Of a stretch of 64,000 nt of DNA, positions 30,194 through 57,707 are shown in pieces. Below the pieces are notes generated by a model. It worked only from the letters and a program-made list of their open reading frames with translations. It was not told the DNA's origin and did no database searches. The stretch is from Alopecurus myosuroides (taxonomy: Eukaryota; Streptophyta; Magnoliopsida; Poales; Poaceae): NCBI GenBank assembly GCA_028641055.1, contig CM054058.1:241848187-241912186 (forward strand). The letters are read 5' to 3'. The position numbers were made by a program, and so were the translations under genes. How positions within the stretch are numbered: the first letter of the stretch is position 1; the number at the start of each line of letters is the position of its first letter.

Positions 30194-30201
30194 TATTTAT
30201 A
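30194..30201 (-). promoter_or_regulatory. TATA box of the Tat1 antisense gene
   Basis: Minus-strand TATAAATA, 166 bases upstream of the exon 1 ATG at 30028. A perfect plant-type TATA box at a similar place occurs in Tat2 and Tat3. Confidence 0.7.
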
Positions 30202-30710: not shown

Positions 30711-30719
30711 GGGGACTGC
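30711..30719 (+). other. Tat1 polypurine tract
   Basis: GGGGACTGC ends exactly at the first base of the right LTR (30720), the position where plus-strand priming is expected. Confidence 0.75.
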
Positions 30720-31562
30720 TGTCGGGGGGTTACCCCCGAGTAGGGTAAAGACAGGTGGTAAAGGCAGCTTACAGAAGAGAGGTTTGGTCGAGTAGCCGAC
30801 TACCTGGTACTCGCTACCCGGTCGACTGCTACTCGGTCTCACCTCAAGATGACCAGAAGGAGATATCAATCAAGTTCTACCCTGTCGAGTAGAAGGTTTG
30901 GCCCGAGTACAATTGGCGGGAACCATTGGCGGGAACCTACTCGGGCCAGAAAGTCAAAGGAGCCGTTCTGACACAGGATCCCGCGTATCCTGGGTCCGTA
31001 CTTGGCAGCATTCGAACTACTGTTCATATGGGACCGGTCTCCCTGACAGTGACAGCATGGAAGCAGGCGGTGGCAGGATAAGGGGGGCCTACTCTGTGCC
31101 TAGGTACAGTGATACCAGTCTGTCCCCTAGTTTTGCCCAACGACTTTACGGAAGCAGCCAAGATTAGGAACCAAAGCTGTCAGCGGGTACCCGGAAGAAG
31201 GACGATGTGCACACTATGTCGACACCTGTCTAGATTTGGACGTATCCGGCTGGGCACCATGTATATAAGGTGCCCCGCCGCCTCCTGCGCGAGGCATGCT
31301 CTGGGATCTTGCTCCATGCTCATAGTGAACCCTAGAAACCCTAAGTTCTTGACCTAGCTCTACTCGGAGAAGAGAGAGAGGCTACTCGGAAGAGATACCA
31401 TTTGTACTGTGGCTACTCGGAGAGACATCGTAATACATAGAGAAAGGCAGGAGTAGGGGTTTTACCTCCTCACGAGGGCCCTGAACCTGGGTACATCGTG
31501 TTGTTTGTGTTGTGTGGATCTTACCTCACGCGGCTATTCGTCGCGTGATCCCTCCCCAGACA
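30720..31562 (+). repeat. Tat1 right LTR
   Basis: It is the same length as the left LTR, with about three differences. The TATA-like TATATAAG is at 31262-31269. It is followed by the genuine right flank in the Sirevirus env-like intron. Confidence 0.92.
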
Positions 31563-31917
31563 CCTCCAGCGTCCATCGTCCCCACATCTTTAGCCATCCC
31601 ATGGCATCTGCCGTGACACCACCACGACACCCTCTCTCTCCCATCTAGTTGGTAGATGGTGATATTACCTAGGAGCTCCAGGTGCGTTGTTGTTCTTGCA
31701 TTGAGGGTAGAGATACATCTTGTACAATCCCTAAGAATTTTGAATACGAATAGTAGGAACAATCTTCGTCGATTTGTAGGTTGGTCCCATGTTCATGTGC
31801 CCCTATTAGTCGATGATCCTTCTTACTACTCTCTTTATTGACTCCTTTGATTTGTGCGCATACAACTTTTACATCACCTCTTCTTTATGATTTTCTCCCT
31901 ATTTCCATTCACAACAG

Positions 31918-33339
31918 CTAGTGGCTCACGGGGAGGTCGTACCAACAAGTGTGTGGGTCGGAAGGCATCGAGAGTTGATGAGATTGAAGAGACACTTGAT
32001 CCATCCTAGCCCAAGAGCAAGCCTAGTTTTCCTGCTTCTGAGAAGACCCTTACCGGAAAGGAGAAGACTGCATCTCAAGTATCTGATTCGGTGTTCCTTG
32101 CCACTCGTCGTGAAAATCCATATGTCATTGAGCGAGGTCGCTTGGTGCCTCAGTTAGAGGGAAGGATACCCGTATACACACCATCTTTCAAGCTCAAATC
32201 TACAAGGAGATTCTCATGAGGAAAGCTCGAGACAATGTGGCCACTCAACACGCCATTTGTCTTGATCATATGGAGAGGAAGCCAGATTATTTTGGAGAGG
32301 CTCTTCTATTTGTGATGCCTTTGCACTTTGTCTTATCATGAAGTTGCAGCAGAATTATGACGAAGGGCTTGAGTGTGACTTCCTAGCTACCATCCACCTT
32401 GGAAATGAGACCGTGCGTCAAATCATTTGGATGACCAAGGGTGAGCAGTTCTCTCTAAAGTGGGCAGAAGTAGGTGATCTTCTTGGTCGCTATCCGGATC
32501 ATGGTCCATTTGGTGATAGTCCGGAGTATGATCATGAGTGGTTCCGAGTTAACTCCGCCAACAACACCATCAACAAGGATCAACTTGCACCACTTTACTC
32601 ATGGAAGAAGTATGTAGTAGGGTTCTCAAAGGGGCTCTACCACACATATGACATCATGCTACGCATCTATCGCGAAACCATCAATCCCAAGGTTGGCAAT
32701 GTTGATGAGATCCAAGGCTACCTCAAGAATCTCATGCTCCTTACCCATGAGAAGCGGCTCCAAGGTTTAAATCAGAAACTTGATGTGATGGACTTCATAT
32801 GGAATGAGTTGTGGTATGCCATTATGTTCAAGAAAAATGCTTGCTATGGGCCACTTATCATGAAGATCATCTTGCATGCTTGGGATGACAAGCACTCAAA
32901 GGATCCCCTTGATGACTGTTCGTGGGTCTCTCACAAGGTGTAGCGGCTACTTATCAAGGATCACACCGAGCCAGTTGAGCATTCTGGTCCTGCTAGCCGC
33001 AAGGGCAAGGCCAAGCCACAGGTTGTGGTGGATGAAGAAGTTGACATCGGGCCCTCTCGTCCTCCTCCTCCTTCTGAGGGCGCTTTCAAGTGGATGGCTC
33101 ATTATCTCAAGAAAGTGTTCCGTATGAACAAGAAGATCGAGCAACATGAGTGGGAAGTGCATTATGACAAGGAGCTCAAGCACCACAGGGCTGCTCAGGC
33201 CGCTAGGCAGCTTCGTCGTGATGACGGTGAGACGGCTGAGTCTCCTATTCAGGACAACGTCGCCACTTGGGGAAGGTGGCAAGTCAGAGACTCGAAGGGA
33301 CATATTATCACTTGGTGTGATGAGGAAGCCGAAAAATAA
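31918..33339 (+). pseudogene. Sirevirus env-like gene exon 2, copy B
   Basis: The counterpart of 16854-18275, and the copy in original position relative to the 3' LTR. It carries the same early TAG, the same frameshift and the same TAG before the last 130 codons (long open pieces 32338-32943 and 33025-33339). It therefore decayed before the duplication. The tail is charged (KKIEQHEWEVHYDKELKHHR). No transmembrane segment is evident in the readable parts, so an envelope role is not supported by the sequence itself. Confidence 0.6.
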
Positions 33340-33794
33340 GTCACTCTCTCTCATTGCCGTCCCCATCCTCCAAGCTAGGACGATCTCCCCGGTTGAGTCT
33401 TGGGATGTTAGCATCGACCTCTCTCCTTTTTGGTATCTTGATGCCAAAGGGGGAGGGATATCTATTTAGGATGTGTTTGGGTATTTGCATTGGTTTTTCA
33501 CAAGCTTTCTTATTCTGTGTTGTCTCTTCTAATCTTGTGAAATGGTTGTGTTGCTATTTGTGAACCTTGTTGTGCATGGTGTAAGACATGTGAACCTCGT
33601 TTTAATTACCTTCTGTACTCCTTCGGTTCATTATTGTGTTTGTGAGCAAGATATCTATTTATTTATATCCTATATATCTTGTTTGGTACATTCATCATGA
33701 AGGGAGCATAAGTCTAGGGGGATCTCCGTCCATGTTGTTTAGACCTTGTGTTGCAAATTTTTGTGTTGTCATGAATTACCAAAAAGGGGGAGAT

Positions 33795-35324
33795 TAAACG
33801 ATCATCTTCCGTTTTGATAATTGATGACATCACAATTAGAGGACTAATGCCTTATAAAGTTTATGAAGGATATGTTTCCAACACTCGTACGATGCTCCCG
33901 CATTCCATATAATCATCTTTAAGGGGATCGTGGCGATGTTCCATCAACGGAGAGCTTGAAAGATGAATGCAGGGCAGCTCTGTCCCAGGCAGCGGTAGTA
34001 CCGGTGAAACCAGCGGTAGTACCGCCCTGGTACTTTCTACGCTTCTAGGTCCTTCTGCCAGGCCACTTTCGGTAGCGGTACCGGTGGTGGTGCTGCCATT
34101 TCTTTGTTCTGTTAGCACATCGCGGATGCAGCGGTGGAAGTCACCGGTAGTACCAGTGGCCACTACCGGTGGAGGTACCGGTGAAGCCTCCGCCCAATCA
34201 GTGCTATGTTAGCACATCGCGGAGGCAGCAACGGAGGTCACCGGTAGTACCGCTGGTACCACCGGTACCTCTGGCAGTTCTTCAGGCTCACAGGTACAGT
34301 CCACCACCGGTGGCAGTATCGGTGGTGGTACCGCCAAACAAGCGTTCTGTTGGTGCATCACGGAGGTAACGACGGAGGTCACCGGTTGTACCGGTCGGCG
34401 GTAGTACTGTTGTTTCCACCGTTACCTACGGTGATGCGGAATATGGTAGGCAGGAATAGAACCATTTGTGCGCTGGGCCACTAACCGCATCGGTAGTACT
34501 GAAGGTAACACCAGTAGTACCGCTGATGCGGGAAAGTGGTAACGGCTGGATTGGTAGGGGTGTATTTAGTGCACTCCATCTTCCCCCTCCAAGTTTTAAG
34601 CTTTAGACTCTCTCTCTTTGTCATTAATGCGAGCTTCAAACTCATAGATCTCCCTCTCCAACCACCCAAACACTCTGATTCTTTCTAGAGAGCTAGAGGA
34701 GACCTAGATCTGCGATTCCACCAAAGGAATTACAAATCCATTCACTCAACCCCCTGGATCTTGAGAGCTCTTGGGTGCCTTGTAACCATAGAGAAAACCC
34801 TAGTGCTTGTAGCTTCCACCTCGATTCAAGAAGTTTTGGATTGTTGAGAGCCTACATCTATCTTGTGGAGTAACCTCAACCTTGTGTAAAGGTTTGGTCA
34901 ACGCCTTCAAGTCGACCTCGTTGTGGAAACGAGAATCTCCCTCACCGGAGAAGTTCAAAGAGAACAAGGTGTGCACATCCGTGCTATTGGAGTGCCTAGG
35001 TGGCTCCACACCTCTCCAACATACACGTACTTCCCTTGGGAAGGAACTATGGGAATCATATCCTTGTCTTGTATCACATAGGCTGTTCACCTAGTTGCAC
35101 ACCTAGATAACCTTATGTTTACTATGGGAACTATTGGAGTGCATATGTTGTGCTTTACATATTGTTAACGTTGCGTACTTTGTTTCGTATCACATAGGCT
35201 GTTCACCTAGTTGCACACCTAGATAACCTTATGTTTACTTGTTTAGCCCAAACTAAAAAGGAAAAGAAGAAGAAAAAAATAGTCACCTATTCACCCCCCT
35301 CTAGTTGACCATACCGTAGTTTCA
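33795..35324 (+). repeat. Sirevirus 3' LTR (about 1.53 kb)
   Basis: Follows the polypurine tract at 33781-33794. It ends with CACCCCCCTCTAGTTGACC and GTAGTTTCA at 35324, the usual end of this LTR type. The first bases (TAAACG) suggest a mutated TG start, so the left boundary is approximate. A duplicated segment CACATAGGCTGTTCACCTAG occurs at about 35079 and 35193. The first 197 bases are also present at 18731-18927. Confidence 0.75.
33995..34520 (+). repeat. GGTAGTACCG near-palindrome cluster in the Sirevirus LTR
   Basis: More than ten irregular copies of GGTAGTACCG, its complement-like CGGTACTACC or GGTACCGGTGG variants. The same motif class occurs in the Sirevirus spacer at 15220-15420. 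Confidence 0.8.
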
Positions 35325-36602
35325 ACGCCCTCGTGGGGGAAGCCCATCTTCTACTACCTCATCAACAACCGCCTACCCCAAGACGAGGTCCTCAGCCAGC
35401 AAATACAACGTCGCTAGCGCGCCTACACCATCATCAACAACCAACTACACAAACATAGTATGTGCCGAATCTTCCAGCGCTGTGTTGACCAAGAAGAGGG
35501 CATCCTCGTGCCCCGGAGCATCCATAAGGGGGGGGAGAATGCGGCCACCATGCCTCGTCAAGGGCCATAGCCTCCAAGGCCGACCGGTATGGGTTCTTCT
35601 AGCCTACCGTCTTAGCCGAATCAGAAGACCTAGTGCGGGCTTGCAGCGGCTGCCAACGCTTTCGAGCGCAAAAGCATACGCCATACTCAGGCCTAAAGAC
35701 CAACCCCATCACTTGGCCATTCGCCGTCTGGTGTCTCGACATGGTCGTCCCGTTCGAACGGCACACAGCGGCATGATGCAGCTGCTGGTGGCAGTGGACA
35801 AGTTCACCAAGTGGATCGAGGCGAAGCCGCTCAAGCGGCTGGACGACCAAACGGTCATCAGTTTTTTCCAAGACATCATATATCGATATGTATACCCCCA
35901 CAACATCATTACCGACAACGGGACCAACTTCTACAAGGGGGCCTTTGCCAAGTTCTGCGGCAGAAAGGGCATCCAGATGGATCTTCCCTCTATGGAAAAT
36001 CCTTAGTCAAATGGCGAGGCGGAAAGACCAAACAGCCTAATCTTAGCTGGCATCAAGCCCGGCTGGTAGACCCGCTTGAGCGGGCACCCGGTTGCTGGAT
36101 CGAGGAGCTACCCTCCGTCCTATGCAGCCTGCGCACCACCCCCAACCGGTCAACTAGCTACACTTCGGTCTTCCTCGTCTATGGAGTGGAAGCAATCCTA
36201 TAGGCGGACATCGAGTTCGATTCTCCCCGAGTCGTCCTATACGTGGAAAAGGAGGCCCAAAAGGCGAACCAAGATGACATCGATCTGCTGGAGGAAGCAC
36301 GGGAGCTCGCGCTATCTAGGTCGGCCATATACCAGTAGAGTCTCCGCTGCTAGCATAGCCGGCGAGTTCGCCCACTCGCATTCCGCGAAGGCGATCTCGT
36401 CCTCCGGCTAATTCAAGACACCAAGGGCCTCCACAAGATTTCCTGTCCGTGGGAAGGACCCTTCGTCATCAACAAGACCCTCCACAAGAATGCCTACTAC
36501 CTCGTTGATGTACGTGAACCGCGAAGGAACCAGGCGGACACCTCCGGAGAAGGGACAGAGCGCCCCTAGAATGCTGAGCTCCTACGCGTATTCTACACCT
36601 AA
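35325..36602 (+). pseudogene. pol: Tat3 integrase and end of pol
   Basis: Starts within the spacer before integrase (FYYLINNRLPQDEVLSQQIQ in the first frame). The zinc domain is damaged and frameshifted. The catalytic core is readable at 35760-36003 (VAVDKFTKWIEAKPLKRLDD, IITDNGTNFYKG). A TAG stop at about 36004 precedes the SNGEAERPNSL segment with the catalytic glutamate. Frame changes and three or more stops follow before the C-terminal block (RRVRPLAFREGDLVLRLIQ-like) and the end at about 36602. The distribution of stops indicates a long-dead copy. Confidence 0.8.
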
Positions 36603-36959
36603 TGGCTGATGTAACACCCTGTATCCAGTTAATGAACGAGCCGATAGCCTAGAGCACAAACTCGGGGGCTATCGTCGAGTCGTGAGACATTTGTTTCCCT
36701 TTTTTTTCTTCAATCCGGCCTTGTCCGGCCGACTGCCACCCTAAGTTTGGATAACCCCAGGCCGTATGCCAAACGTTTCCTCTGCGGATCCGGCTACAGA
36801 CCACAACTCGGCTGAGCAGCCGGCCAGAGCGCAAGCGGGAGGACCACTCATGAAAAACCCCAAGCTAGTCGGCCTAAAAACGCATAAAAATTAACGACCT
36901 CACTCGCCCGAAATTCCCGTCCCCTAGGATGAAACAACCGTGCCCCCCGCCAGATGACC
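36603..36959 (+). other. Tat3 region after pol
   Basis: There is no coding domain. It contains ACTCGGGGGCT at about 36658, a polypurine-like motif that recurs in tandem at 47808-48120. The last five bases, TGACC, are the Tat2 target duplication. Confidence 0.55.
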
Positions 36960-37437
36960 TGTCGTGGGATAATCACGGCAGATGTTACCAGGGGTAACTG
37001 ATCTTGGGGCAAGTCGACACAGGCGTTCGGGAGAGGGTTTAGCTCAAAGGAAGACATGATGCAACTTGATATGACAGCCGGCAATCGAAGTCGCCGGATC
37101 TCTATTCTCGATACAATAACTCGATTAGGGTTTACACTGGATATTCGATACCACTCGATACTGCTAAGGTTCTCAAATCTCTGCCTCAAACTATACCCGG
37201 GGGTCGGTTTTATATAACACCTGTACCCCCTAGCTTTTTCTACAAGGCACACCCGGGTCCTACCCAGACACGGCGTGCTAACTCTAACTTTCCTTTACAG
37301 CATCCCTAATCCGGATCACTAGGCCCACGAACTTGGGCCTCCACAAACATCTTTATCATTAGTCAGATCCTGCACACCATCCTTTGGGCCGGGTTACTTC
37401 CCGGAGCCTGGCATACCGGGTTAGTATCCCCCCATCA
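36960..37437 (-). repeat. Tat2 3' LTR
   Basis: Plus-strand ends are TGTCGTGGGAT and CCCCCATCA. The minus-strand TATA-like TATATAAAA is at 37216-37208. Confidence 0.95.
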
Positions 37438-37814
37438 GTAGTCCCCAGAATAGCTTGGGCTTCACGGATCTCCTTGAAGCGCTTGCTATTCCCTGCAAAG
37501 ATACCGACCATACGGGCGTACGAAAACTGAGTTAAGATATCATGATATTCAGCTAGGCCTCACTCCATGGCGGCCATACAATAACCCGGACCTTTCCTCC
37601 GTATACTTGGATCCAAATCATTAAATCCAAACCACAACAAGAAATAGCAAGATCTCATGCTTGTTAACCAGTCCTGCCATTACGAACGAATCCCTTCCTT
37701 CCTCTGTCACGATGCCTTACCCAACACTTGACACACATCTCGTGAAATCTTCGTGGATAACCATCACTCCACAATTCCCGGCTCCTAGCCGTTAAGATAA
37801 GCTCTCCCTTGCCT

Positions 37815-37822
37815 TATAAATA
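37815..37822 (+). promoter_or_regulatory. TATA box of the Tat2 antisense gene
   Basis: Plus-strand TATAAATA in CCTTATAAATAGCGCC, 378 bases inside the 3' LTR. It is followed by a pyrimidine-rich leader (CTTCTCCTCTCTCTCA), typical of plant transcript starts. Confidence 0.75.
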
Positions 37823-38062
37823 GCGCCTAGAGGGTAACCCTAAGCCCATCACCACGCCACAACTTCTCCTCTCTCTCATTGCCCCAAACACCTTCGCAGC
37901 ACCATCGTGAAGAACTCGCGCCCGTTACTGACGCAAGATTAACAGCGGCCGCGCCTGCCCTCGAATCGCCTCGCGCCGCCGTCAAGCGCCACCTTGGTAC
38001 CTCCATTCCTCCCATCCGAGCCGCACCGCTCGTCGCCACCACATTAAGCCCCAATCTTCTCG

Positions 38063-38542
38063 GTAAGCTCTTCGCAATCAATCAATTCAGCCCCGCAGAT
38101 TTTAATCCATCCAAGGTCAGATCTAGGTCATCCCGCGAATTACTTGTCCGATTGCACCAGATTAGATTGATTCAATGCTCGCCAACCCCTTTAATTGCCT
38201 GCCTGATAGTCGCAAATGATCTTCCACCCATCACTGATCACCAATTTTACTTAAAAGCCATCCGCGAACCTCTCCATCTAGATCCGTTCCTCCGCTGTTT
38301 TCCGCTTATTGCATTAACACCCGGAAAAACCCTCCTTTTCCAGCTATTTCATTTGCGGTATAAATATGGGCAACCATCCGTCATCCCCAAATACCTTTTC
38401 CTACGTAAGTGACCAGCAATTTCCACAAGTGTGATCAATACCCGGACAGTTCTCAACTTCGTACCCTCTTGATACCTTATACTCGGATATTTCAACTTTC
38501 CCGGGTCTTATTTCATACATCTTTTTATTTTGTGTTTCGCAG
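38063..38542 (+). other. 5'-UTR intron of the Tat2 antisense gene
   Basis: Donor CTCG/GTAAGC at 38062/38063 and acceptor TTTCGCAG at 38542. The ATG follows ten bases into the next exon at 38552. No ATG is present between the TATA box and the donor. Confidence 0.65.
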
Positions 38543-38551
38543 GCTGACCCC

Positions 38552-41500
38552 ATGGCTCCCAAGCGACAAGGAAAACATCCGGCTCAAGCAAGGACCACCC
38601 AAGCCATATCCGCCAATTGGGGGCGCTCCACGACCACTAAGGCCAAATTGGACGAGCTAACCGAGTTAGGCACCCTCCCCTCTCAGAAAGATATCCGCTG
38701 GAGGGTGCCAGGTGGCGAAACTCATCCCACTCCCGCAGAAGACGAGGTAATCTGCTTTGTAGAGCACGTGACCCGAGGATTTCGCCCTCCGGGTCACCCT
38801 TTCTTTAGGGAGGTCTTAGATCACTACGGACTCCGGGTGTTCGACATAGGGCCTAACTCTATGTTGAACATCACCCACTTCATAGTTCTATCTGAATCAT
38901 ATTTGTGCATGCCACCAAACCTGACTCTTTTCACTGAGTTATTCCAATGCAAACCGTGCCGCGAAAGCGGCGACGGGGCGCTTCTTACTTGCGGCGGGGT
39001 ATCCATCCAACGCCGTAGGAATTCTTTAATGCCAACCCTCAACCTGCAATCCTGCGCCAAACATTGGCAATTATCCTTTTTTTACTGTCGCGATACCTCC
39101 CCCGACAGCGAGAAGAAGCTGCCGGGTTACTCAGAGACCCCCCTCCAACCCTCCGAGTCTTTCAGTGCCTTCGCACCAGACTCGGACAGGGAAGCAATCC
39201 TTCCTGCACTAGCCAAAATAGCCATTCTCTCGGCCCAAGGCCTCCTAGGGCTCAATTTGATAAAGACATGGGTCGACTTCCGAATCCAACCTAATTCCAT
39301 CCGCACCAAATTGATGTGCGAGTATTCGGGTCACACTACAGATGCACTTCGCTATTCCTCCAAAAGCTTTGCGACTGGTGACAATATCAAGACCATCAAG
39401 AGCCTCTTGGCAGAGAAGCTGGATGTGATAAAGGGCATCTCCGGGTTACCTCCGTTTACTCGGGAAAATCCGGCTCCGACGGTAATACCCGGCACCCATA
39501 ACTTGTCTCCACATTTCAACTCGATACCGCTTCTAAACATTAACTTTATCTTTTTACCTTAGGCTGATGACCCCTTCTGGAGAGTGGACCCCCTCCCCCC
39601 CTCCAGAGACCCGGAAGAGGAGGACGAGACGACTGACGACAGCGAAGGTACTTACCCAGGATCTACACACTTTTGCTTGTATCGCTCTCCTTTCGTCTGT
39701 CTTTTTCCCAATGAATACACATCTGGCTCGCGGGGCTGGAGGACGAAGGTGGAAACAACGAGGATGACCCGGAGAGAACCGAGTCTGACCCAGAGGCAAC
39801 AGCCGGAGCCAAGAGGAAAAGCAGGGGGACAGTATCCAAGGTTCCTTTTTCCTCACTATCTTCCGAATCTTACTCCTTTGACGCCATGCGAAGACTTAAT
39901 CATCAATTATCAAATTCGCCGTGCTTGAAGGAACCTTTCCCCGCCAAGCGCAGGGTAACTCGGAGCTCCCCGGGTGAAGATCCCCTTAACCCGGGCATCT
40001 CCACCCCTTTAGTCCCTCGTGGCAGTGCTCCTCCATCTCGTTCTTCCAACTCTCCTCAGCGCCACCCTTCTCCTAACCACCCACGTGCCGGGCAATTCCG
40101 GGTTCCATTAGTGGTTCCTGCGAACACCTCATCTACTTCAAGTGGCGAGCTCCCATCGGACTATACCGTAAATGCCGGGTAAGTTTTTGCCTTACTATCC
40201 CTTTTTGCCTCTAGCGAACTTTCATTCGAGCCACCGTCATCATCAATAACTGCCTTTTTTCATCTTTCTTTCAGTGCTCAGGTCACCGTCAGTGACCCGG
40301 AAAACACAAAAATGGTTAACATTCAGGTGGAGAAGCCGACTGACGATGCAGACGCCGCAACCGGAGGTGACGCAGCCACTAACCGGGAACAAGGCCCTCT
40401 GAACAATCCACTTTCCCAAACCGTCGGATCTCCTTCCTTATCGGAACCAGTAGACGAAGAGATAGAAATTCTAGATACGAAGATGCGCCCCCCAAACCCG
40501 GACACTCAGACTGTCCGGGTCTCCACTCCAAGTGCGAGGAAAACCCCCCTGCCTGATGACCAAGCTGCCGGCTCTTCCCGGACTCATTCCGATGGGTTAA
40601 CGTTTGCCCAGATGCTGGAAACCCTGCGCACCTTACGAGCTAACGAGGAAAACATCCTGGGAGCCTTAATAACCAAACATGAGGTAAGTTGAACTAATGT
40701 TGCTTGTACCTTTGCCCAGTCCCCAAGTTCCGAGTGAGTTCATTCATGACTTGCTCGGGACTTTATGATACCATTGACTGATAACCGTGCTCTTCTATCC
40801 GACTAACACTTTTTAACATCCATGCAGTCTTTCGTGACTCAATATGAAGAGAAACTTGCAAACGCCACCAAGCTCATTGAAAAAGAAATATCTTTACGCG
40901 AAGCGGCCGAGACTGAAGCCAGAAGGAATAGGCAATTAATGAAGAAGTACCGAAGAAGGGCTCACCGAGCCGAAGACGACCTGACAAGCCTTTCTGTCGA
41001 AATTTCTGATACCTATCGTTCTTTGCTTGGTATGCTTCCTTCTCCGAGTTTATCCCTTTGACCAACAGCAAAAAATGCTTAGCTGATATATTCATTTTAC
41101 TCCAGGCCCGGATGAAACCATGCCGGATGAGGATGATATTGCCAAGCTGAAGACCATGAAGAATGTTATCCGGCAGCTGTGTGCCGGAACCAGATGGATT
41201 TTGGAAGAGTTACGGTGGCCAGGTAGAGGACATGTTGACCTGAAGAGGATGCTGGACGCCTTTTCCACGATTCCTGAGTGGATTTGGCACTGGAAGCGCT
41301 CGTCCTGCCGGGTTGGAATGACCCGGGGGCTATCACTCGCCAAGGCTTACCTCCCCAAGCTCGATCTGGCAAAGCTCATGGGCGGCTTCCCCGAATTCAA
41401 GCTTGATGGTTCAAAATTCTCGCGGGAGGATTTTCAGGCTGTGCAGAAGGAGGTCCGTTACCCGGCTAGCGTGATCGCTGATGAACTGGATGTCAATATT

Positions 41501-41755
41501 CTTGTCCCTGCTTATGATGCTGCTGGTGTGGCAATTAAGTCAGATCTTCCCGAACCATATGACATGATGGCTCGGTGGAAGGAGGAAGCTGCTGCGATAA
41601 GGGCGGAGGCTGCCAAGAAACAAGCTGAAGCCGGCTCTGCTCCTGCTGCCTCAACATCAGTCGTTCCGCCTCCTGCTGGAGCTGGCGCCGCCGATCCGGG
41701 TGTTGCTGCTGCCACCAATGATGGCAAGGGTAAGGCCAAGATGAACGCCGATTGA
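38552..41755 (+). CDS. Tat2 antisense spliced gene (PF04195-like), apparently intact
   Basis: Coding exons: 38552-39481, 39563-39647, 39749-40178, 40275-40683, 40828-41029 and 41106-41755. All introns are GT-AG (81-144 bp), with phases 0,1,2,0,1. The sum is 2706 bases, exactly 902 codons with the stop. Exon 1 (310 codons) matches the PF04195-type domain: TRGFRPPGHPFFREVLDHYG and ESYLCMPPNLTLF, conserved with Tat1 and Tat3. Middle exons are acidic, Ser/Pro-rich and probably disordered. Exon 5 (40828) is a basic coiled coil (KLIEKEISLREAAETEARRN). The last exon has TRWILEELRWPGRGHVDLKR and KLMGGFPEFKLDGSKFSR, then an Ala-rich tail. It lies opposite to pol, with its own TATA box. The biochemical role is unknown. 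Confidence 0.8.
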
Positions 41756-42840
41756 TATATGGTTTCCGATGCCTCTTCTTAAGCGTCAGTTGGTCGACAT
41801 ACTTTTTGAAACAGTCATTTTTTAGGCGGTGCGCCTGTGCACCTTTGATATTTTTTCACCAGTATTTTGTAATGCACACTAAGGCCTTGATATACTCGAT
41901 GCCTGCTCCGACCTTTATAAGTTTAAGCTCATCTGTTCTCGATATCTGGTTTTATTTATTGCTTCTTGTGTGAACACTCGATTTCCGGGTCTCATGGGTA
42001 TTGACGAGCGGATTTTGCTTCAAAGTCCCCAAGTCCCCAAGACTCGGATTTTTGGACTGTTGCAACTATACAAGTAAGCCAGTTCTTTTCAAGATTTCAA
42101 GCTACCGGGCCCGGATTGCCGAGCCTAGGACACTTGATCTTGAAAAGGCAACAAAATGCTTATTGCTATTTTCACAAAGATCCATGAGTTGTTTCACATT
42201 GGTTTTGAAGTTATGCTTAATAGTCATTGAGTTTCCAGCTATTCAGCCTTGTACTCTGCATAACTTGTGGTTTAGATGACCCTTTTGACTGTCTTGTACT
42301 GTAAGCCGGCTTTCGCATGGATACCATGTTGTTACATCAATACGAAGACGTAGCCAGCCAATTCCCGTCGGGTTTCATGACTAACTGCCATCGTAAGCGA
42401 ACGAATCATGCCACTTCAATGCGAGTCACATCGAGCTTAAGTAAGAGTAGCCAAGAAATTTGGACTTCTTTGTCCGGTTATAAGATTGTAGCCGTACTCG
42501 TTTGCGAGTAATCGGCCCTTATAACTCATAGGCATCATGGCCGGGTCTTTGAGTTTGTAACTGTGCTATTTAAGCGATCAGCCCCCAAGACCTAGATATA
42601 CACATCGTACTGAGAATACATAACCTGATAACAACCATCTCTTTTCTTGATAACCATCTCTTTACTTGATATGAAAAACTGATAACAACCATCTCTTTAC
42701 TTGATATGAAAAATGTAGGTCAGCAAGCCGCCTCATTAAAAACCCGTCCAGTCCCCAAAGGTGCCCTGGATAGGAAAAGAGTACGTCAGAAACCTGCTGC
42801 CTATTACATCGTGCAATTCCACTTGCCAATATAGTCTTTA
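41756..42840. other. Gap between convergent Tat2 antisense gene and pol
   Basis: There is no coding domain. Several GTCCCCAAG motifs (about 42025, 42752; complement CTTGGGGAC) resemble the element's polypurine core. A short tandem duplication of ACCATCTCTTTACTTGATA lies at about 42650-42712. Confidence 0.6.
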
Positions 42841-45800
42841 CTAAGTATAATACGGACGCAGCTGAGCCACGTTCCATGGTCTATCTCTTTCTTGCATAGA
42901 TGAAGTGGTGTGTGCGGTGTCATTGACTGTAGCCGACTCTTCCCTTGCATCTATCAAGTAATATGATCCATTGTGCAGATTCCGGCTTACGATAAATGGT
43001 CCTTCCCATGGTGGTGATAGTTTGTGCTTTCCCTCATTTGACTGAACCAGGCGTAGAACCAAGTCTCCTTCCTGGAATACCCGGGTTTTCACGCGCCGGC
43101 TATGATACCTCCGTAGATCTTGCTGATATATAGCTGACCTCTCCAAGGCTTGTTCTCTTTGCTCTTCTAGCATATCGACGGCGTCCTGCCGGGTTTTTTC
43201 GTTCTCCACTTCGACGTAAGCTGATACTCGTGGTGAATCGTGGATAATGTCGCTCGGTAACACTGCCTCCGCACCATATACCATGAAAAAGGGCGTCATC
43301 TGGGTAGATCTGTTAGGTGTAGTATTGATACCCCAAACCACAGAAGGTAGTTCTTCGACCCATGCACCAGCAGCCCTAACACAGGGGACCCGCAACCGTG
43401 GTTTTAACCCACGAAGCAATTCTTGGTTTGCTCTCTCCACTTGCCCATTGGCCTGCGGGTGAGCCACTGATGCAACATCAAGCCGGATGCCATTGTTGCC
43501 ACAGAATTTCTCCATCTCGCCAAGAGACATGTTAGTTCCGTTGTCGGTGATTACGCTGTGGGGATACCCAAACCGGTAGATAATCCTTTTCAGGAACTTG
43601 ACCGCTGTAGCCGCTTCGCAATTAGTAACTGGCATAACCTCAACCCACTTGGTAAACTTGTCAATAGCCACCAACAGATGTGTCTTCTTGCATGGTGACA
43701 TATGGAAGGGACCAACCATGTCCATACCCCAGACGGCGAACGGCCAAGTTAATGGGATGGTCCGTAATTCCATAGCCGGTACGTGTGTTTGGCGAGCGTA
43801 CCTTTGACATCCGTCACATCTTGCTACCAAACGTTCTGCATCCGCTAGAGCCGTAAGCCAGAAAAATCCGTGTCGATAAGCTTTAGCCACCAGAGACCTT
43901 GTAGATGCATGATGCCCACAGTCGCCTTCGTGTATTTCCTTGAGAATCTGTCGGCCTTCTTCTGGCGCTACGCAGCGCAAGAAGACTCCTGTTGCGCTTC
44001 TCTTGTATAATTCTCCATTGATGATTGAATACCCCTTTGCTCGCCTCAGAATTTGTCTTGCTAGTACCTCCTGTTCTGGTAACTCGCCCCGTGATAGATA
44101 GGCCAGGTATGGCTCTGTCCACTCGGGGATGGCATGTACTGTGGCCACGTACTCCAAATCCGGGTCTTGGTTTGCCAGTTCTTCCTCAGACTCGGCTTTA
44201 ACTGATGGTCGCCGCAATTCATCCAGGAACACATTAGGTGGAACCGGTTCTCTACGCGAGCCGAGTCTAGCGAGTGCGTCTGCTGCCTCGTTTTTTCTTC
44301 TGTCTATGTGCTCCACCTCATACCCGGAAAAGCACCCGGCAACCCTGTCGACCTCCCTGCGATATGCTGCCATAGTTGCATCCTTTCTGTCCCAAGTTCC
44401 CGATACCTGTTGTACCACAAGATCCGAATCTCCGAAGCATCGTATCCTTCTAATGTTCATTTCCTTAGCTACCTTTAAACCATGCAACAGGGCCTCATAC
44501 TCGGCCACATTGTTTGAGCAATCAAAGTGAATTTGCAGTACGTAACTCAATTTGTCTCCCCTGGGCGATGTCAGCACTACTCCCGCTCCTGATCCCTCAT
44601 ATTGCTTTGACCCATCGAAGTGCATGGTCCATGACTCGGATTTTGGAACTGTGGTAACCATACCTGTATGTGTCCAATCGTTAACGAAATCAACTAAAGC
44701 TTGAGACTTGATTGCTGACCTGGGTTCGTAGTTGATATGATAATCTCCCATCTCTATTGCCCACTTGGCTATTCTTCCCGTCGCGTCCGAGTTTCTGATA
44801 ATATCCGACATTGGTATTGAGCTGACCACCGTTATAGGATGTTCTTGGAAATACGGCTTCAATTTCCTGCTGGCCATGAAGACTCCGAACACCAACTTTT
44901 GCCAATGTGGATAGCGCTGCTTTGCTTCTGATAATACTTCACTGACGTAGTAAACCGGCCTCTGAACCGGGTAACCTTTCCCGTCCTCTTTGCGTTCCAC
45001 GACAACCACTGCGCTAACGGCTCGGGGGCCAGCTGCCACGTATAGCAACATAGGCTCTTTAGGACCCGGCGCCGCTAGTACTGGTGCTTCAGATAATTGC
45101 TTCTTTAGTGCTTCAAACGCTTCATCTGCCTCTTCGTCCCATACGAATTTATCCGATTTTCGCAAGAGCCGATACAAGGGTATTGCTTTTTCTCCGAGTC
45201 TAGATATGAACCGACTCAAGGCTGCTACACAGCCCGTGAGCTTTTGAACATGCTTCAAGTTCTCCGGCTTTTTCAAGCTCTGGATTGCCTTGATCTTATC
45301 TGGATTTGCCTCAATTCCTCTCTCGGACACTATGAAGCCGAGTAATTTCCCAGCCGGAACTCCGAACACGCACTTCGTTGGATTAAGTTTCATCTGGTAC
45401 CTCCTCAGGTTTTTGAATGTCTCCTTTAGATCATCGATGAATGTCTCCGCCTTTCTGGTCTTGATGACCACGTCATCCACATAAGCATGGACGTTACGTC
45501 CGATTTGATCCTCGAAGCACTTTTGAATACACCGTTGGTAAGTTGCGCCAGCGTTCTTCAGCCCAAATGTCATAGTTTTGTAACAAAAGGCCCCAAACGG
45601 GGTTATGAATGATGTTTTCTCCCAATCCTCCCTTTTGAGCTTAATCTGATGATACCCGGAATATGCATCCAGGAAGCATAACAGATCGCTTCCAGCTACT
45701 GCGTCTATAATCTGATCTATCCCTGGGAGCGCAAACGGATCCTTTGGGCAATGCTTGTTAAGACTAGTGAAGTCAATGCACATCCTCCACTCGTTGGTCT

Positions 45801-47034
45801 TTTTCATCACCAGGACCGGGTTAGCCAACCAATCCGGGTGAAATACTTCCATGATAAAGCCGGCTGCCAGTAGCCGAGCGATTTCTTCGCCTATAGCTTT
45901 TCTTCTTTCCTCATTCATTTTCCTCAAACCTTGTTTCACGGGCCTAGACTTGGGATCCACATGCAAACTGTGCTCAGCCAATTCTGTAGGGATACCCGGC
46001 ATGTCGCTGGGGGTCCAGGCAAACACATCTGCATTCGAGCGAATGAACTCCACGAGCGCTCCCTCCTGCTCTTTTCCCAGGTTAGACCCTATGGTAAACT
46101 GCTTAGTGGAATCCCCTTCGACAAAATCTATCTTCTTGGTGTCTTGCGCTGCCTTGAATTTTGCTCTCTCATCCTCAGTATTCGGCTTTTTCAAGGCTGT
46201 TCTATCGTCCGGGTTTACTTGAGACCGGTAATATTCGAGCTCTTCCTTCCTGCATGCCTGCTCGGCCATAACTGAATCTCCTTCGTCGCACTCGGCCGCT
46301 ATATCCCGGTTCCCATATATAGTGATGGTCCGTTTAGGACCCGGGATCTTCAGCTGCAAATACACGTAGCATGGCCTAGCCAGGAATTGGGCATAAGCCG
46401 GCCTCCCCAACAGCGCATGGTAAGGACTGCGCAACTTGACTACCTCGAACGTGAGCCACTCCACTCGATAATTGTCCGTCGATTCTCCGAAAGCAACTTC
46501 CAAGGTGATCCTTCCCTCGGGGCTTGCCGAGTGACCCGGTACGATCCCGTGAAAGATTGTTGAACTTTTCTGCAGCTGGGACTCTTTGAGACTCATCCGT
46601 AAGAAGGTCTCCCAATAAAGGATGTTGATGCTACTTCCACCGTCCATCAGGACCTTCTTCAGCTCGTAACCATTAACCTGTGGAGCAACCACCAACGCCA
46701 AGACTCCTGGACGCTCCACTTTTTCCGGATGATCTCTTCTACTCCACGTTATCTCTTGTTCTGCCCATCTAAGATATCCCGGCGCGGCTGATGAAACCGA
46801 ACTTGCCGCTTGCTTTGATGCCTCTTTGTTCCTGCTAGAAGTTCCTGTAGTATGCACATGATATTGTCCCTTTAAGTTAGTTGTTCGTACCGTGTCGACG
46901 AAGATATTGATCCGGCCGATCTTCAATATAAATCCGGACTCGAGGTAATCCGATTCTGGCCCCCAGCCGAGATCGTCCGCCAACTTTTCTTCTTCGTGGT
47001 CGATGTAGGTTTCGCCAATGACAAGATCCTCCAT
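42841..47034 (-). CDS. pol: Tat2 protease, reverse transcriptase, two RNase H domains and integrase
   Basis: Uninterrupted frame of about 1397 residues from the ATG at 47034, which starts MEDLVIGETYIDHEEE. The frame stays open upstream into the LTR, so the start is a choice. After about 110 residues without a recognisable capsid domain comes PGYLRWAEQEITWSRRDHP and the protease motif VLMDGGSSINILY (about residue 128). Reverse transcriptase has YVDD at about 518-521. The second RNase H starts MHFDGSKQYEGSGAG (about 803). The integrase zinc domain (HEGDCGHHA...CDGCQ) precedes the catalytic motifs DMVGPF, ITDNGTN and GQVERAN. All catalytic residues look intact. The missing gag means particle protein must come from elsewhere. 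Confidence 0.92.
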   Translation of the reverse strand: MEDLVIGETYIDHEEEKLADDLGWGPESDYLESGFILKIGRINIFVDTVRTTNLKGQYHVHTTGTSSRNKEASKQAASSVSSAAPGYLRWAEQEITWSRRDHPEKVERPGVLALVVAPQVNGYELKKVLMDGGSSINILYWETFLRMSLKESQLQKSSTIFHGIVPGHSASPEGRITLEVAFGESTDNYRVEWLTFEVVKLRSPYHALLGRPAYAQFLARPCYVYLQLKIPGPKRTITIYGNRDIAAECDEGDSVMAEQACRKEELEYYRSQVNPDDRTALKKPNTEDERAKFKAAQDTKKIDFVEGDSTKQFTIGSNLGKEQEGALVEFIRSNADVFAWTPSDMPGIPTELAEHSLHVDPKSRPVKQGLRKMNEERRKAIGEEIARLLAAGFIMEVFHPDWLANPVLVMKKTNEWRMCIDFTSLNKHCPKDPFALPGIDQIIDAVAGSDLLCFLDAYSGYHQIKLKREDWEKTSFITPFGAFCYKTMTFGLKNAGATYQRCIQKCFEDQIGRNVHAYVDDVVIKTRKAETFIDDLKETFKNLRRYQMKLNPTKCVFGVPAGKLLGFIVSERGIEANPDKIKAIQSLKKPENLKHVQKLTGCVAALSRFISRLGEKAIPLYRLLRKSDKFVWDEEADEAFEALKKQLSEAPVLAAPGPKEPMLLYVAAGPRAVSAVVVVERKEDGKGYPVQRPVYYVSEVLSEAKQRYPHWQKLVFGVFMASRKLKPYFQEHPITVVSSIPMSDIIRNSDATGRIAKWAIEMGDYHINYEPRSAIKSQALVDFVNDWTHTGMVTTVPKSESWTMHFDGSKQYEGSGAGVVLTSPRGDKLSYVLQIHFDCSNNVAEYEALLHGLKVAKEMNIRRIRCFGDSDLVVQQVSGTWDRKDATMAAYRREVDRVAGCFSGYEVEHIDRRKNEAADALARLGSRREPVPPNVFLDELRRPSVKAESEEELANQDPDLEYVATVHAIPEWTEPYLAYLSRGELPEQEVLARQILRRAKGYSIINGELYKRSATGVFLRCVAPEEGRQILKEIHEGDCGHHASTRSLVAKAYRHGFFWLTALADAERLVARCDGCQRYARQTHVPAMELRTIPLTWPFAVWGMDMVGPFHMSPCKKTHLLVAIDKFTKWVEVMPVTNCEAATAVKFLKRIIYRFGYPHSVITDNGTNMSLGEMEKFCGNNGIRLDVASVAHPQANGQVERANQELLRGLKPRLRVPCVRAAGAWVEELPSVVWGINTTPNRSTQMTPFFMVYGAEAVLPSDIIHDSPRVSAYVEVENEKTRQDAVDMLEEQREQALERSAIYQQDLRRYHSRRVKTRVFQEGDLVLRLVQSNEGKHKLSPPWEGPFIVSRNLHNGSYYLIDAREESATVNDTAHTTSSMQERDRPWNVAQLRPYYT

Positions 47035-47077
47035 GCCCTTCCGAGCTTCTCCCGTGATGTAGACACCTTTGGACGCA

Positions 47078-47096
47078 GGCCCCACGGTGGGCGCCA
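47078..47096 (-). other. Tat2 primer-binding site
   Basis: Minus strand TGGCGCCCACCGTGGGGCC, two bases inside the 5' LTR. It has the same TGGCGCC start as Tat0. The tRNA is not assigned. Confidence 0.7.
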
Positions 47097-47098
47097 AC

Positions 47099-47576
47099 TG
47101 TCGTGGGATAATCACGGCAGATGTTACCAGGGGTAACTGATCTTGGGGCAAGTCGACACAGGCGTTCGGGAGAGGGTTTAGCTCAAAGGAAGACATGATG
47201 CAACTTGATATGACAGCCGGCAATCGAAGTCGCCGGATCTCTATTCTCGATACAATAACTCGATTAGGGTTTACACTGGATATTCGATACCACTCGATAC
47301 TGCTAAGGTTCTCAAATCTCTGCCTCAAACTATACCCGGGGGTCGGTTTTATATAACACCCGTACCCCCTAGCTTTTTCTACAAGGCACACCCGGGTCCT
47401 ACCCAGACACGGCGTGCTAACTCTAACTTTCCTTTACAGCATCCCTACTCCGGATCACTAGGCCCACGAACTTGGGCCTCCACAAACATCTTTATCATTA
47501 GTCAGATCCTGCACACCATCCTTTGGGCCGGGTTACTTCCCGGAGCCTGGCATACCGGGTTAGTATCCCCCCATCA
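47099..47576 (-). repeat. Tat2 5' LTR
   Basis: Differs from the 3' LTR at about two positions (ACACCC/ACACCT near 47360 and CCCTACTCC/CCCTAATCC near 47448). The minus-strand TATA-like TATATAAAA is at 47355-47347. Confidence 0.95.
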
Positions 47577-47581
47577 TGACC

Positions 47582-50520: not shown

Positions 50521-53500
50521 TGATACGTCATTATTTCTGATGTTCCATGTTGTTTTCATGCCTTATGCTACATGTTTTCCTTACACTTCATGTCATTTTT
50601 ATCGATTTCCCGGGACTAGCCTATTGACAAGATGCCACATAGCCAGTTCCCTATTTTCTTCTAGTTTTAGTTTCACAAAAGATGTTATGGAAATATTCTC
50701 GGAATTGGAAAATTCGAAGACCGGAAGTCTTAGAATTCCCGAAGGTTCCACGGAGTCCCGAAGAGGCCCGGAGGGGGGCCACGGGGGGGGGGCACACCAT
50801 AGGGCTGCACGCCCCCTGGCCGCACCTGGGGGTGGTGTGGGCCCCTCGGGCGTCCACTGCCATCGCCCTTTCACCTATTTATTCCCCCGATACGTGAACC
50901 CTAAAAATATACCACTTTATCCTCAGAAACACCCGAGGCCGCCGTCATCGTCAACCCGGGATCAGGAGGGTTATGGAGCTCTCCCCGGCACCCATGCCCG
51001 CCTCCGGAGTGATGCGTGAGTAGTTCATCCCTAGACTACGGGTCCATAGCAGTAGCTAGATGGTTGTACTCTCCACTTTATAACCCATGTTTAGATCTTG
51101 TGAGCTGCCTCACATGATCGAGATCATTTATTTGTAATGCTACATGTTGTGTTTGCTGGGATCCGATGATTATTGAATGTTGTGTCTTTTGATTATCAAT
51201 CTATCATGTTGTCTTCATGTGTATGTTATTTATGATCTTGCATGCTCTCCGTTGTTAGTAGATGCTCTGTCCAAGTAGATGCTAGTGACTCCAAGAGGGA
51301 GTATTTATGCTCGATAGCGGTTTCATGCCTCCTTTGCATATGTGATCGAGTGATAGAAACGTGACGGATGGAGGATGTGATGCTGCCATTAGGGAGAAAA
51401 CAACAATGTTTAGTTTGTTACACACTTTGCTTACTGCGATAATTTGTTGCTTGCAACTTAATACCCAACGTTTGTTCGGATGATATTTGAAGGGTGGATT
51501 ATTAGTCATAGATGCAGTTGGACGACGATCTATGTATTTTGTTGTAATGCCCGCATGAATCTCATAGTAATCTTTATGTCATGCATGTTTCTTTATTTGT
51601 CAATTGTCCAGATGTAATTTGTTCACCACGCATGTTAGTTATGTTTTATGGAGAGACACCTCTAGTGAACTGTGGACCCCGGTCTATTTTCTCATTCTAA
51701 TAATACACACACTGCTTCCACTGTTTTCACACTGCTACTGCTATTTTCATTTTTTTCCATACTGTTTTCCACACCATACATTTAACCTCTTTGTTATCAG
51801 CAAAACCGGTGAGATTGACAATCTCACTGCTTTGTTGGGGCAAAGTGAATTGTTTGTGTTGTGTAGGTTCCACGTTGTTGCTGAACCTGTAGTGCGCCCT
51901 GCCATCTTACCTGCTACTAGTTGATTCAACCTTGGTTTCTTTCTGAAGGAAACTTGCTACTGTGCTCTTCATACCTTCCTCTTGTGGTCTCCCAACGTAC
52001 ATGTGTTACACACGCATCAAGCTAATTTCTGGCGCCGTTACCAGGGAGGAAGTGAATTTCTGCAAGGGGAGTCTCTCATTTCCAATCATTTTTTACTTTG
52101 TTATTGTTTTGCTTGTTACTTGCTTTATCATGCTTGCTAGCAATGTTTGATGTCTTTGCAACTAGATCTTATTGACAAGGTGGGTTCATGGATGAACAAC
52201 AAAAATATTATAAGGAACACCGCTTGTCACAAAAAGGGATACACTTATGGGAGCAAATTAATAAATTGCATGACTATGCTAAAAACTTGTGCTCTACTTA
52301 TAATGTTACTTATTAATTTGATAAATCTTGTTGCTATAGGAGGTATAAACACCTCCCTTTTGAATATGAGTATAATGATAATGTTACCATATCTTCTTAT
52401 GTTAAGGGAATTATGACTTTTATGATGTAGAACAAATTGAAGAATTTATTTCTTGGAAGGGTGCATTCAAAATTGCCTATTTGCTTGAAAGTATTGATGA
52501 TGCACCTTATAAATATGAGATTTATGCTATACTTGAGTATTTCTTTGATAATTACAAGGATTGTAATTAGTACATACTTAAATATCGTAATAGATGTTCT
52601 CCCCCAAAGGAGGAGACTAATGCCTTGCAGGAACCTATGGAAGAAGAAATTGCTGAATCTGGAAGCTCATTGGATGAAAAAGAGGAGGAGAGTGATGATC
52701 AAGAGGAGGAAGAATGGAGTAGCTACCCATGTATACCTCCCAATGATAGTAAATCTTTAACTCATACCTTTTTTGTTACAATCCATCCTACTTCGATAAA
52801 TCTTAATATAATCCTCTATTTATTCCAACTATTGATATGCATGATAATGAGGAAGTTTGTTTAGAAAATTTATATGATAATGCTCTAGATGATGGTCCTA
52901 TCTTACTTGATTTTATAAATTATAATGTTACTGAAAGTAGGATTGCTATAATGTGTCCCATACCTTTTATGAAAGTAGGAAATATTCTCGGAATTGGAAA
53001 ATTCGAAGCTCGGAAGTCTTAGAATCCCCGGAGGTTCTACAGAGTCCCCAAAAGGCCCTGAGGGAGGCCACACCATAGGGTGGCGCGCCCCCTGGCCGCG
53101 GCTGGGGGTGGTGTGGGCCTCTCGGGCTTCCACCGCCATCTCCCTTTCGCCTATTTATTCCCCCCCAATACGTCAACCCTAAAAATATACACTTTTTCCC
53201 GAGAAATACCCGAGCCCGCCGTCATCGTCAACACGAGATCGGGAGGGTTCTGGAGCTCTCCCCGGCACCCTGCCGGGAGGGAAATTCATCACCGGAGGGG
53301 TCTACACCACCATGCCTGCCTCCGGAGTGATGTGTGAGCAGTTCATCCCTGGACTACGGGTCCATAACAGTAGCTAGATGGTTGTACTCTCCACTTTATG
53401 CCACATGTTTAGATTCGTGAGCTGCCTCACATGATCGAGATCATCTATTTGTAATGATACATGTTGTGTTTGCCGGGATCCGATGATTATTGAATGTTAT

Positions 53501-54372
53501 GTCTTTTGATTATCAATCTATCATGTTGTCTTCATGTGTATGTTATTTATGATCTTGCATGCTCTCTGTTATTATTAGATGCTCTGGCCTAGTAGATGCT
53601 AGTGACTCCAAGAGGGAGTATTTATGCTCGATAGTGGGTTCATGCCTCCTTTGCATCTGTGCTCGAGTGACAAAAACGTGACGGATGGAGGATGTGTTGT
53701 TTCCATTAGGGAGAAAACAACGATGTTTACTTCGTTTACATTACCCACTTTTCTTACTGCGAGAATTTGTTGCTTGCAACTTAATACCCAACGTTTGTTC
53801 GGATGATATTCGGAGGGTGGATTATTAGTCATAGATGCAGTTCGACAATGATCTATGTATTTTGTTGTAATTCCCGCATGACTATCATAGTAATGTTTAT
53901 GTCATGCATGTTTCTTTATCTGTCAATTGCCCAGCTATAATTTGTTCACCACGCATGTTAGTTATATTTTGTGGAGAGACACCTCTAGTGAACCGTGGAC
54001 CCCGGTCCATTTTCTCATTCTGATAATACGCACATTGCTTCCACTGTTTTCATACTGCTAATGCTATTTTCATATTGTTTTCATACTGTTTTTCACACCA
54101 TACATTTAACCTCTTTGTTATCAGCAAAACCGGTGAGATTGACAACCTCATTGCTTCGTTGGGGCAAAGTGAATTGTTTGTGTTGTGTAGGTTCCACGTT
54201 GTTGCTGAACCGGTAGTGCGCCCTGCCATCTCAGCTGCATCAACCTTCTAAAGTTACTCCTTTCTCCTACTGATCGATTCAACCTTGGTTTCTTTCTAAG
54301 GGAAACTTGCTATTGTGCTCTTCATACCTTCCTCTTGGGTTCTCCCAACGAACATGTGTTACACGCGCATCA
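50521..54372 (+). mobile_element. Internally deleted Athila-type element
   Basis: The left LTR 50521-52019 (TGATACGTCA...CGCATCA) is followed by a primer site at 52030-52047 (TGGCGCCGTTACCAGGGA, close to the tRNA-Asp complement). Then come about 930 bp of decayed gag-derived sequence (FISWKGAFKIAYLLESIDDA, ETNALQEPMEEE) and a right LTR 52978-54372 that lacks its first 180 or so bases. One deletion has removed everything from gag to the start of the right LTR. A perfect target duplication ATCCT (50516-50520, 54373-54377) shows it inserted as a whole. It splits exon 4 of the Tat3 antisense gene. Confidence 0.88.
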
Positions 54373-54994
54373 ATCCTCTCCAACGCGTACTTCCGACACC
54401 AAGGGTGGTGCCGGAGCTACAGACTTCGCTCACCCCAATGACTTGGGCGAGGTGCACCACAAAATCAAGAAACGAGTAAGGAAATGAACCCCCCAGCCAG
54501 GCGGTGACAACTAAGAAACACTTACCCTTCAACATAATGAGGCACTACCGGCCTCTTCTTCTTCTTCTTCCTCGACGACTCCGCGTCGAGGTCACCGGCC
54601 CCCTCCTTCGACTCTGAAGGCTGGGCTTGCTTGAGGGGCCGGGCCGATGTGGATCTTACGGATAATGGTTCGTCAGAGTCTACTATCACGATGACTTGGC
54701 GAGAGGAAGACGGTTCGCCCCGATCTTCGGGATTACCCGGATGGAGCGGCCCATCGCGAGATGCGCCGCCTACGTCACCCTCCTCCTCCGGATCCTACTC
54801 CTTCTCCTCGCCAGCCTGGTTGGTCCCCTGCTCCTGCGCCCGCCCTGTCGCCTCGGCGGCATCCGGGGCCTCATCCTCTGTCCCGCGACACAGAGGGTGG
54901 GGAAGGTCAGGCAAAAGTCAAGGCCATTTGGCCCATCCTCGAGGTCCTGCACCACGAACATCTGCGCGAATCCACAGCCGCCATGAGGCGTCGG

Positions 54995-56567: not shown

Positions 56568-57700
56568 GTCGGCAAAATGAACTCGAGACGACTACAATAG
56601 AAAGCTCAAGGGTGACACAGGAAACTCACCCGGGGAGGCAGCCGGTCGCGGGAGTATGGCACCCATTCCCAAGACCAGCCGGAGATGGCCTTCTCCTTCA
56701 TGATCAGCCAGAGCCAGTCGTTTAGGCTCTCCTTCTTGAGGACACGACCGACAGTCAGGCTAGGTCAAACCGGCCGGAGTAATGGCACAACTTGTGCGAC
56801 CTCGCTTGGAGCGGCCACACCTGGCGCGCCAACCAGCTGAGCGTGAGGTCACGCCCAGTCATGCCCTTGCCCGTTAGCGCCGTCAGCCGGGTGCACATCT
56901 TGGCGAGGTCGTTGATGTCCTCCCCAATCTTCACCTCCCCCAGCTCTCTGACGGCGATCCGGACACGTACTGGAAGAGGTTGATGCGGTTAGCCGGCGCT
57001 TCACCGTCCTCACACGCCGCGTTGCGGACGTACAAGAATGACCGCTACCAGTCATTGGCGCTCTCCAGCATCACGAACTCCGGCATGTCATTGCCGAAGC
57101 GCTTGTAGACGATGGCGCCGCTGTAGGGAACTTGCCGGACCCAGAAGTAGAATTGCCGGCTCGAGAGGGCCGCGTTTGGCCTCACCCCTAGGTAGGACTC
57201 AAAGCCGGCTGCGAATGCCGAGAGCTGTGAACTGGAGTTTACTCCCAGATGGTGCGGCTCGAGGCCGTACTCATCCAGGAGCTCGCGAATGAATGGGCTC
57301 ACAGGCAGCGCCAGCCCGCGGTCCAAGTCCTCGGATAACAAAACGAACTCCCCTTGGTGGGGCATTGGCTCCAACTCCCTGCCGGCTGCGCACGCCTCGA
57401 CATTGTCGGGCCTCCCAAGATAGCCCTCCCCCGCGAGGCGAACGAGGTTAGCGGAAGTGGCGGTGGATCCCCGTCATGTTCCCTCAGAACGGTGCGCCAT
57501 CTCTGTGGCTTCGGCAGGCGGGGTGTCGTGCGTGTCCGCGAAGAAGGGCGACGGGGTCTTGGATACGCGACCACCTATGGCGATGAAGGGCGAGCGCACA
57601 AGACCAGCGGCGGCGGTGGGCGAGTGCAGAAGATGAAAGGCAAGCAGACGGGGAGATGGGAGTAGAGTGCGGAACCTCCCCACCAAAGGGCCGTTCCCCC

Positions 57701-57707
57701 TTTTATA
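57701..57707 (-). promoter_or_regulatory. TATA box of the Tat3 antisense gene
   Basis: Minus strand TATAAAA in CTGCTATAAAAGGGGG, about 200 bases upstream of the ATG at 57500. The spacing is like that in Tat1. Confidence 0.65.

Follow-up and report, generated by a model that had tools for sequence, protein, structure and literature searches.

A six-exon frame lying antisense to pol in a gag-less Retand (Tat) long terminal repeat (LTR) retrotransposon of Alopecurus myosuroides is coding and under purifying selection in transposing lineages. The element, which covers 10.6 kb (36960-47576) and is read on the minus strand, lies in a stretch of 64,000 nucleotides (contig CM054058.1, positions 241,848,187 to 241,912,186; hereafter the window), to which all coordinates refer. 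The frame likely belongs to an antisense accessory gene of the TRP28 (PF04195) type, organized like a normal RNA polymerase II gene that has introns, with a promoter of its own inside the element. An earlier note on this DNA had described an apparently intact, spliced gene with a PF04195-like first exon on the strand opposite to pol, in a gag-less Tat element that is young, a description that our data supported.

The gene is encoded by the plus strand, in the region that separates the 3' LTR from the 3' end of pol. A TATA box (TATAAATA, 37815-37822) that is identical in 38 of 39 other genomic copies precedes a proposed leader exon (37846-38062), whose start was assumed about 25-30 bp past the box, and a proposed leader intron with GT...AG splice borders (38063-38542). 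The leader exon contains no ATG in the window copy (counted from 37850) or in any of 37 copies, a weak point when taken alone, as 30% of shuffled leader exons also lacked one. From the ATG at 38552, coding exons 1 to 6 (38552-39481, 39563-39647, 39749-40178, 40275-40683, 40828-41029 and 41106-41755) total 2706 nt, or 902 codons including the stop, with a predicted product of 901 amino acids. The five coding introns all have GT-AG borders: intron 1 (39482-39562, phase 0), intron 2 (39648-39748, phase 1, weak acceptor), intron 3 (40179-40274, phase 2), intron 4 (40684-40827, phase 0) and intron 5 (41030-41105, phase 1). Four of the five combine a GT donor with an acceptor passing the pyrimidine-tract rule. 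The TATA box, leader intron and six GT-AG exons that the earlier note had listed were confirmed in this way, and the resemblance of exon 1 to PF04195 proved real, with a match at residues 67-134 (E 1.3e-20; 73.8 bits against a curated cut-off of 26.2). Exon 5 appears coiled-coil-like by eye, exon 6 carries a conserved C-terminal region and the stop, and basic clusters occur at residues 360, 405 and 657 of the predicted protein.

Protein-coding constraint on the antisense TRP28 gene was found across its genomic copies. Copies were sought in the species' own genome (3.57 Gb, 3227 contigs) with 38000-38600 as the query; 40 of 2765 first-look candidates were scored, the window copy included, and the other 39 were analyzed. 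The spliced frame was open from end to end in 21 of these 39, and all 12 splice dinucleotides were intact in 36; one copy (L033) was missing the leader acceptor. Variant sharing was traced in 37 near-full-length copies, with the truncated L029 and L030 excluded here yet kept in the 39-copy counts. Variants shared by at least two copies fell 47/38/149 on codon positions 1/2/3 (p 6.9e-22) and produced no stop among 234, against 6.7 expected, with an omega-like ratio of 0.23. Single-copy variants fell 85/76/135 and included 8 stops, against 8.4 expected (omega-like ratio, 0.53). Intron variants had no significant periodicity, whether shared (25/24/22; p 0.91) or single (33/26/19), and the density of third-position variants (315/kb) was similar to that of the introns (299/kb). 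The third-position excess matched the predicted frame in all six exons, across two genomic frame changes (p 8.2e-9, 0.054, 1.3e-5, 0.041, 0.0084 and 1.1e-7 for exons 1 to 6). Since the shared variants are free of stops and single-copy stops arise at the neutral rate, the frame is filtered in transposing lineages and decays after insertion; inherited changes are filtered for the spliced protein, and post-insertion changes are unfiltered or less so. The ratio of nonsynonymous to synonymous change (dN/dS) among copies, a comparison that the earlier note had proposed, was not neutral, with omega at 0.17-0.25 for the spliced frame in five diverged pairs. Among the first 20 copies compared with the window copy, two at about 95% identity gave 0.17 and 0.18, and 14 others gave 0.16-0.44. 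The leader intron also showed few variants per kb, which was discarded as evidence because the copies had been chosen by similarity to that stretch.

These patterns bear on the alternative that the antisense transcript works as RNA, its mature or nascent form pairing with the genomic RNA and triggering or tuning silencing of the element, with the protein secondary. About 3 kb of the genomic RNA would have its complement in such a transcript, and a possible or additional role of this type has been proposed (PMC7264820). However, a pure RNA role predicts neither a third-position excess that follows the frame changes through every exon nor the lack of stops among shared variants. We consider this explanation unlikely, although an RNA role could coexist with a protein role.

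Relatives of the gene were sought by protein searches. The whole predicted protein retrieved 2 relatives among 7990 candidates scored and exon 1 retrieved 7 proteins among 1450 candidates, while exon 6 alone found none among 1425 candidates; a scan of viral contigs returned no relative. An annotated Alopecurus aequalis protein model (P0001) aligned without gaps across the junctions of exons 1-2 and 5-6 and spanned junction 2-3 with a gap; it lacks the central part of the TRP28 domain and most of exons 3-4. The published A. aequalis annotation is reported to have drawn on RNA sequencing and Iso-Seq (PMC11655881). In all four proteins whose unspliced reading extends to where exon 1 ends (P0003, P0005, P0006 and P0007), similarity stops at NPAP or a variant of it (NxAP), and a valine, as expected from a GT donor that is read through, follows within one or two codons. 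Parsing succeeded for 18 of 20 genomic loci that match P0006, and the conserved block was followed by GTAAG in 17 of them and by ATAAG in one. For a third family, the gene model obtained by joining locus L055 with L075 was uncertain and was not used.

According to a second alternative, exon 1, the TRP28 open reading frame (ORF), is the only functional part, and the open stretches downstream are separate or meaningless. Surveys do list TRP28 as an ORF (PMC11963269), and exon 1 can be read unspliced for 336 codons. Against this stand the third-position excesses of exons 3, 5 and 6 (those of exons 2 and 4 are marginal), in frames that are joined by splicing alone, and the fusion of exon 1-2 and exon 5-6 sequence in P0001. 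We therefore regard a functional role confined to exon 1 as quite improbable.

The window holds a second Tat element with a comparable antisense gene. This element is young, its LTRs (15655-18927 and 30719-33991; 3.27 kb) being 99.7% identical, and its antisense TRP28 gene runs on the minus strand from an ATG at 30028 down to about 24456 in multiple exons. The gene is preceded by TATAAATA at 30194-30201, contains a PF04195 exon (E 2.6e-19) and has seven GT-AG introns, which were chosen by eye and then checked. Intron 1 (phase 0) and intron 2 (phase 1) have the same phases as those of the studied gene, and the last intron is in phase 1 if the flanking open frames are read (by eye). A frameshift in the third exon disrupts this second gene. 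Because exon-1 identity between the two elements is only 24%, the shared layout of the antisense gene looks old. Positions 33960-34560, close to where the right LTR of the second element ends, are dense in ggtagtaccg-like repeated words (by eye). A further TRP28 stretch, which probably remains from some other element, occurs on the minus strand at 57048-57473 (PF04195, E 1.6e-12).

Host genes typically have a promoter and several introns, and recent capture of one by this single element would account for these features. The gene is present in at least 39 other copies, however, with relatives in several families and in the second Tat element of the window, and TRP28 is reported to lack similarity outside transposable elements (PMC11963269), which makes such a capture very improbable. 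Because free exon chaining can yield long frames, we searched for spliced ORFs with up to five introns, using strict splice sites or any GT-AG, in the sequence and in 300 dinucleotide shuffles. The strict search found the identical five introns save for one acceptor, and its best ORF had 887 codons, whereas the shuffles had a median of 136 and never exceeded 373. Across 242 scanned 3.5-kb segments, on both strands, the median was 213 codons, and the top 24, which reached at least 605, all overlapped the antisense gene, its counterpart in the second Tat element or one of the two large pol frames. That the open frames were chained by free choice of GT and AG sites has a negligible probability, given that shuffles with any GT-AG do reach 627 codons (median, 445) but the observed ORF has 916, and given the strict search and the selection result.

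Several observations weigh against a constrained six-exon protein-coding gene, or limit how far it can be taken. The frame was not open in 18 of the 39 other copies, two of them the truncated L029 and L030, and four close copies with few changes gave pairwise omega values of 0.69, 0.77, 1.26 and 1.57. The constraint is weaker than that on pol, since pol, for which a 2.5-kb piece served as the yardstick, gave 0.03-0.10 in 7/7 copies. Variants were scored relative to the window copy, so that their direction is unpolarized; the copies are related by descent, so that variant counts are not independent events; and the choice of copies by similarity to 38000-38600 biases densities in that stretch. 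Selection was measured in a single family. The intron-2 acceptor at 39748 lacks a pyrimidine tract and has an in-frame rival at 39793, which would start exon 3 at 39794 and give 887 codons; the alignment with the A. aequalis protein favors 39748 (score 438 versus 417). A second TATA box (TATAAATA, 38359-38366) lies 185 bp upstream of the ATG and is identical in 36 of 37 copies. This box, which is followed within the proposed leader intron by a GTAAGT donor at 38405 that is kept in all 37, could mark the real promoter of the antisense gene or an alternative one. We infer splicing and translation of the antisense mRNA from conservation. Profile comparison with the second element and with a rice protein detected no C-terminal homology between families, and C-terminal shuffle tests were mixed: 5/500 for the window gene against the second element and 101/500 against rice, 14/500 and 1/500 for P0001 against the same two, and 66/500 for the second element against rice. 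The structures predicted for exons 1 and 6 were of too low confidence to be used (mean pLDDT, 52.5 and 48.8), a fold search gave three matches that all fell short of E 0.001, and a search of solved structures returned chance-level matches only.

The host element itself is a recent, intact insertion. Comparison of LTR block 36959-37437 with block 47098-47576 showed 2 mismatches in 479 positions, and the LTRs (3' LTR, 36960-37437; 5' LTR, 47099-47576, both in minus-strand orientation) are 478 bp long with TG...CA ends, these ends having been set by eye. A target-site duplication, TGACC, also recognized by eye, flanks the element at 36955-36959 and 47577-47581. At a substitution rate of 1.3e-8 per site per year, the two mismatches place the insertion at roughly 0.16 million years ago. 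The pol gene is a single open frame of 1418 codons on the minus strand (47097-42844) encoding reverse transcriptase (RT), RNase H (RH), a second RNase H-like domain and integrase (INT). No Pfam match to gag was found in this frame, and between the LTRs there was no other minus-strand frame of at least 120 codons. Pfam placed RT_RNaseH at 679-786, RVT_3, which we take to be the extra RNase H of Tat, at 827-944, and rve at 1119-1214. The additional RNase H sits between RH and INT, the order reported for angiosperm Tat clades (RH, extra RNase H, INT; PMC6317226), and the long region from pol to the 3' LTR carries the antisense TRP28 gene, both in keeping with Retand/Tat. Immediately outside the LTR, at 35313-36599 on the plus strand, lie integrase-like pieces of another Tat pol.

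A mechanism can be proposed on this basis. The gene would be transcribed from its internal promoter, spliced and translated into the 901-amino-acid protein. The parts of this protein would be a TRP28 domain at the N terminus, an acidic linker containing basic clusters, a stretch resembling a coiled coil and the conserved C-terminal region. The basic clusters, together with the nuclear product reported for maize Grande (PMC7264820), suggest that this protein may enter the nucleus, where its target would be DNA or RNA of the element itself and its most likely effect would be to boost expression or oppose silencing. The product would thus be a nuclear, DNA-associated regulator. The introns would survive RNA-based replication because the genomic RNA holds them as reverse complements, which should be unspliceable, and reverse transcription would restore them. 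This antisense-intron logic appears in mirror image in engineered retrotransposition reporters (PMC12786077). Since a family without gag keeps both the antisense gene and pol under selection, Gag may be borrowed in trans, and the antisense product would act mainly in cis or in a family-specific manner.

To our knowledge, antisense TRP28 genes have no known function, although they occur in a widespread lineage of flowering-plant retroelements. A broader proposal, which we put forward as a tentative possibility, is that the several antisense ORFs recorded in Retand elements of flowering plants together make up the exons of a single ancient gene with many introns. This gene would have stayed antisense because its introns survive RNA-based replication in that orientation only; in gag-less families it would remain under selection while gag is dispensable, and its product would be a cis-preferring regulator aiding the expression or silencing escape of its own copy. 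If this is true, the object to clone and test would be the whole 901-amino-acid protein and not the exon-1 ORF. Reading the ORFs as a single spliced gene would offer a reason for their backward orientation, and the fact that a family can lack gag yet keep the antisense gene would make its benefit to the element directly testable.

Antisense ORFs in Tat-lineage elements were already known, as the earlier note had stated, and TRP28 ORFs are a published Retand hallmark. Vicient (2025) reported that 97% of recent Retand clusters carry TRP28 ORFs in antisense, located the ORFs with ORF Finder and predicted DNA binding for TRP28 (PMC11963269). Three of the A. myosuroides clusters in that survey (7a-7c) are, like our element, gag-less with antisense TRP28 and have similar dimensions: LTRs of 477-481 bp (478 here), internal regions of 9671-9685 bp (9661 here) and pol-to-3' LTR regions of 5427-5433 bp (about 5400 here). 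The survey describes ORFs, and its main text does not contain the word intron, whereas the gene studied here is multi-exon. Maize Grande gene23 is reported to lie similarly antisense between pol and the 3' LTR, with its own promoter, a nuclear product and a suggested regulatory role, in a review that also calls for the examination of antisense and spliced transcripts (PMC7264820). The earlier note's view of the gene as under-described therefore holds in part: the antisense TRP28 ORFs, including those of gag-less A. myosuroides clusters, and the Grande promoter and nuclear product are in print, while the multi-exon structure was not found there. No description of introns in antisense TRP28 genes was found in searches of an open-access library. 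This suggests that the multi-exon structure with measured selection is the new part.

Introns as such have been reported in another plant Tat-group LTR retrotransposon, Ogre of pea and Medicago (PMC6317226). The Ogre intron lies in the sense gag-pol transcript and is spliced in a subset only, in contrast to five coding introns on the opposite strand in our element. HBZ and APH-2 of the human T-cell leukaemia viruses are comparable as antisense accessory genes with a nuclear product (PMC11963269), and no sequence relation is claimed. Their promoter lies inside the 3' LTR (PMC7264820), whereas that proposed for the studied gene is at least about 380 bp internal to the LTR. In extrachromosomal circular DNA of blackgrass, PF04195 is reported to top the domain tables, with 416 and 361 circles (PMC10606437).

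Elsewhere in the window, RT-like fragments occur on the minus strand at 3255-4726. Positions 50533-58249 are a patchwork of repeats, some direct and some inverted, each several hundred bp long and about 80-94% identical; part of it is also present at 8813-10406.

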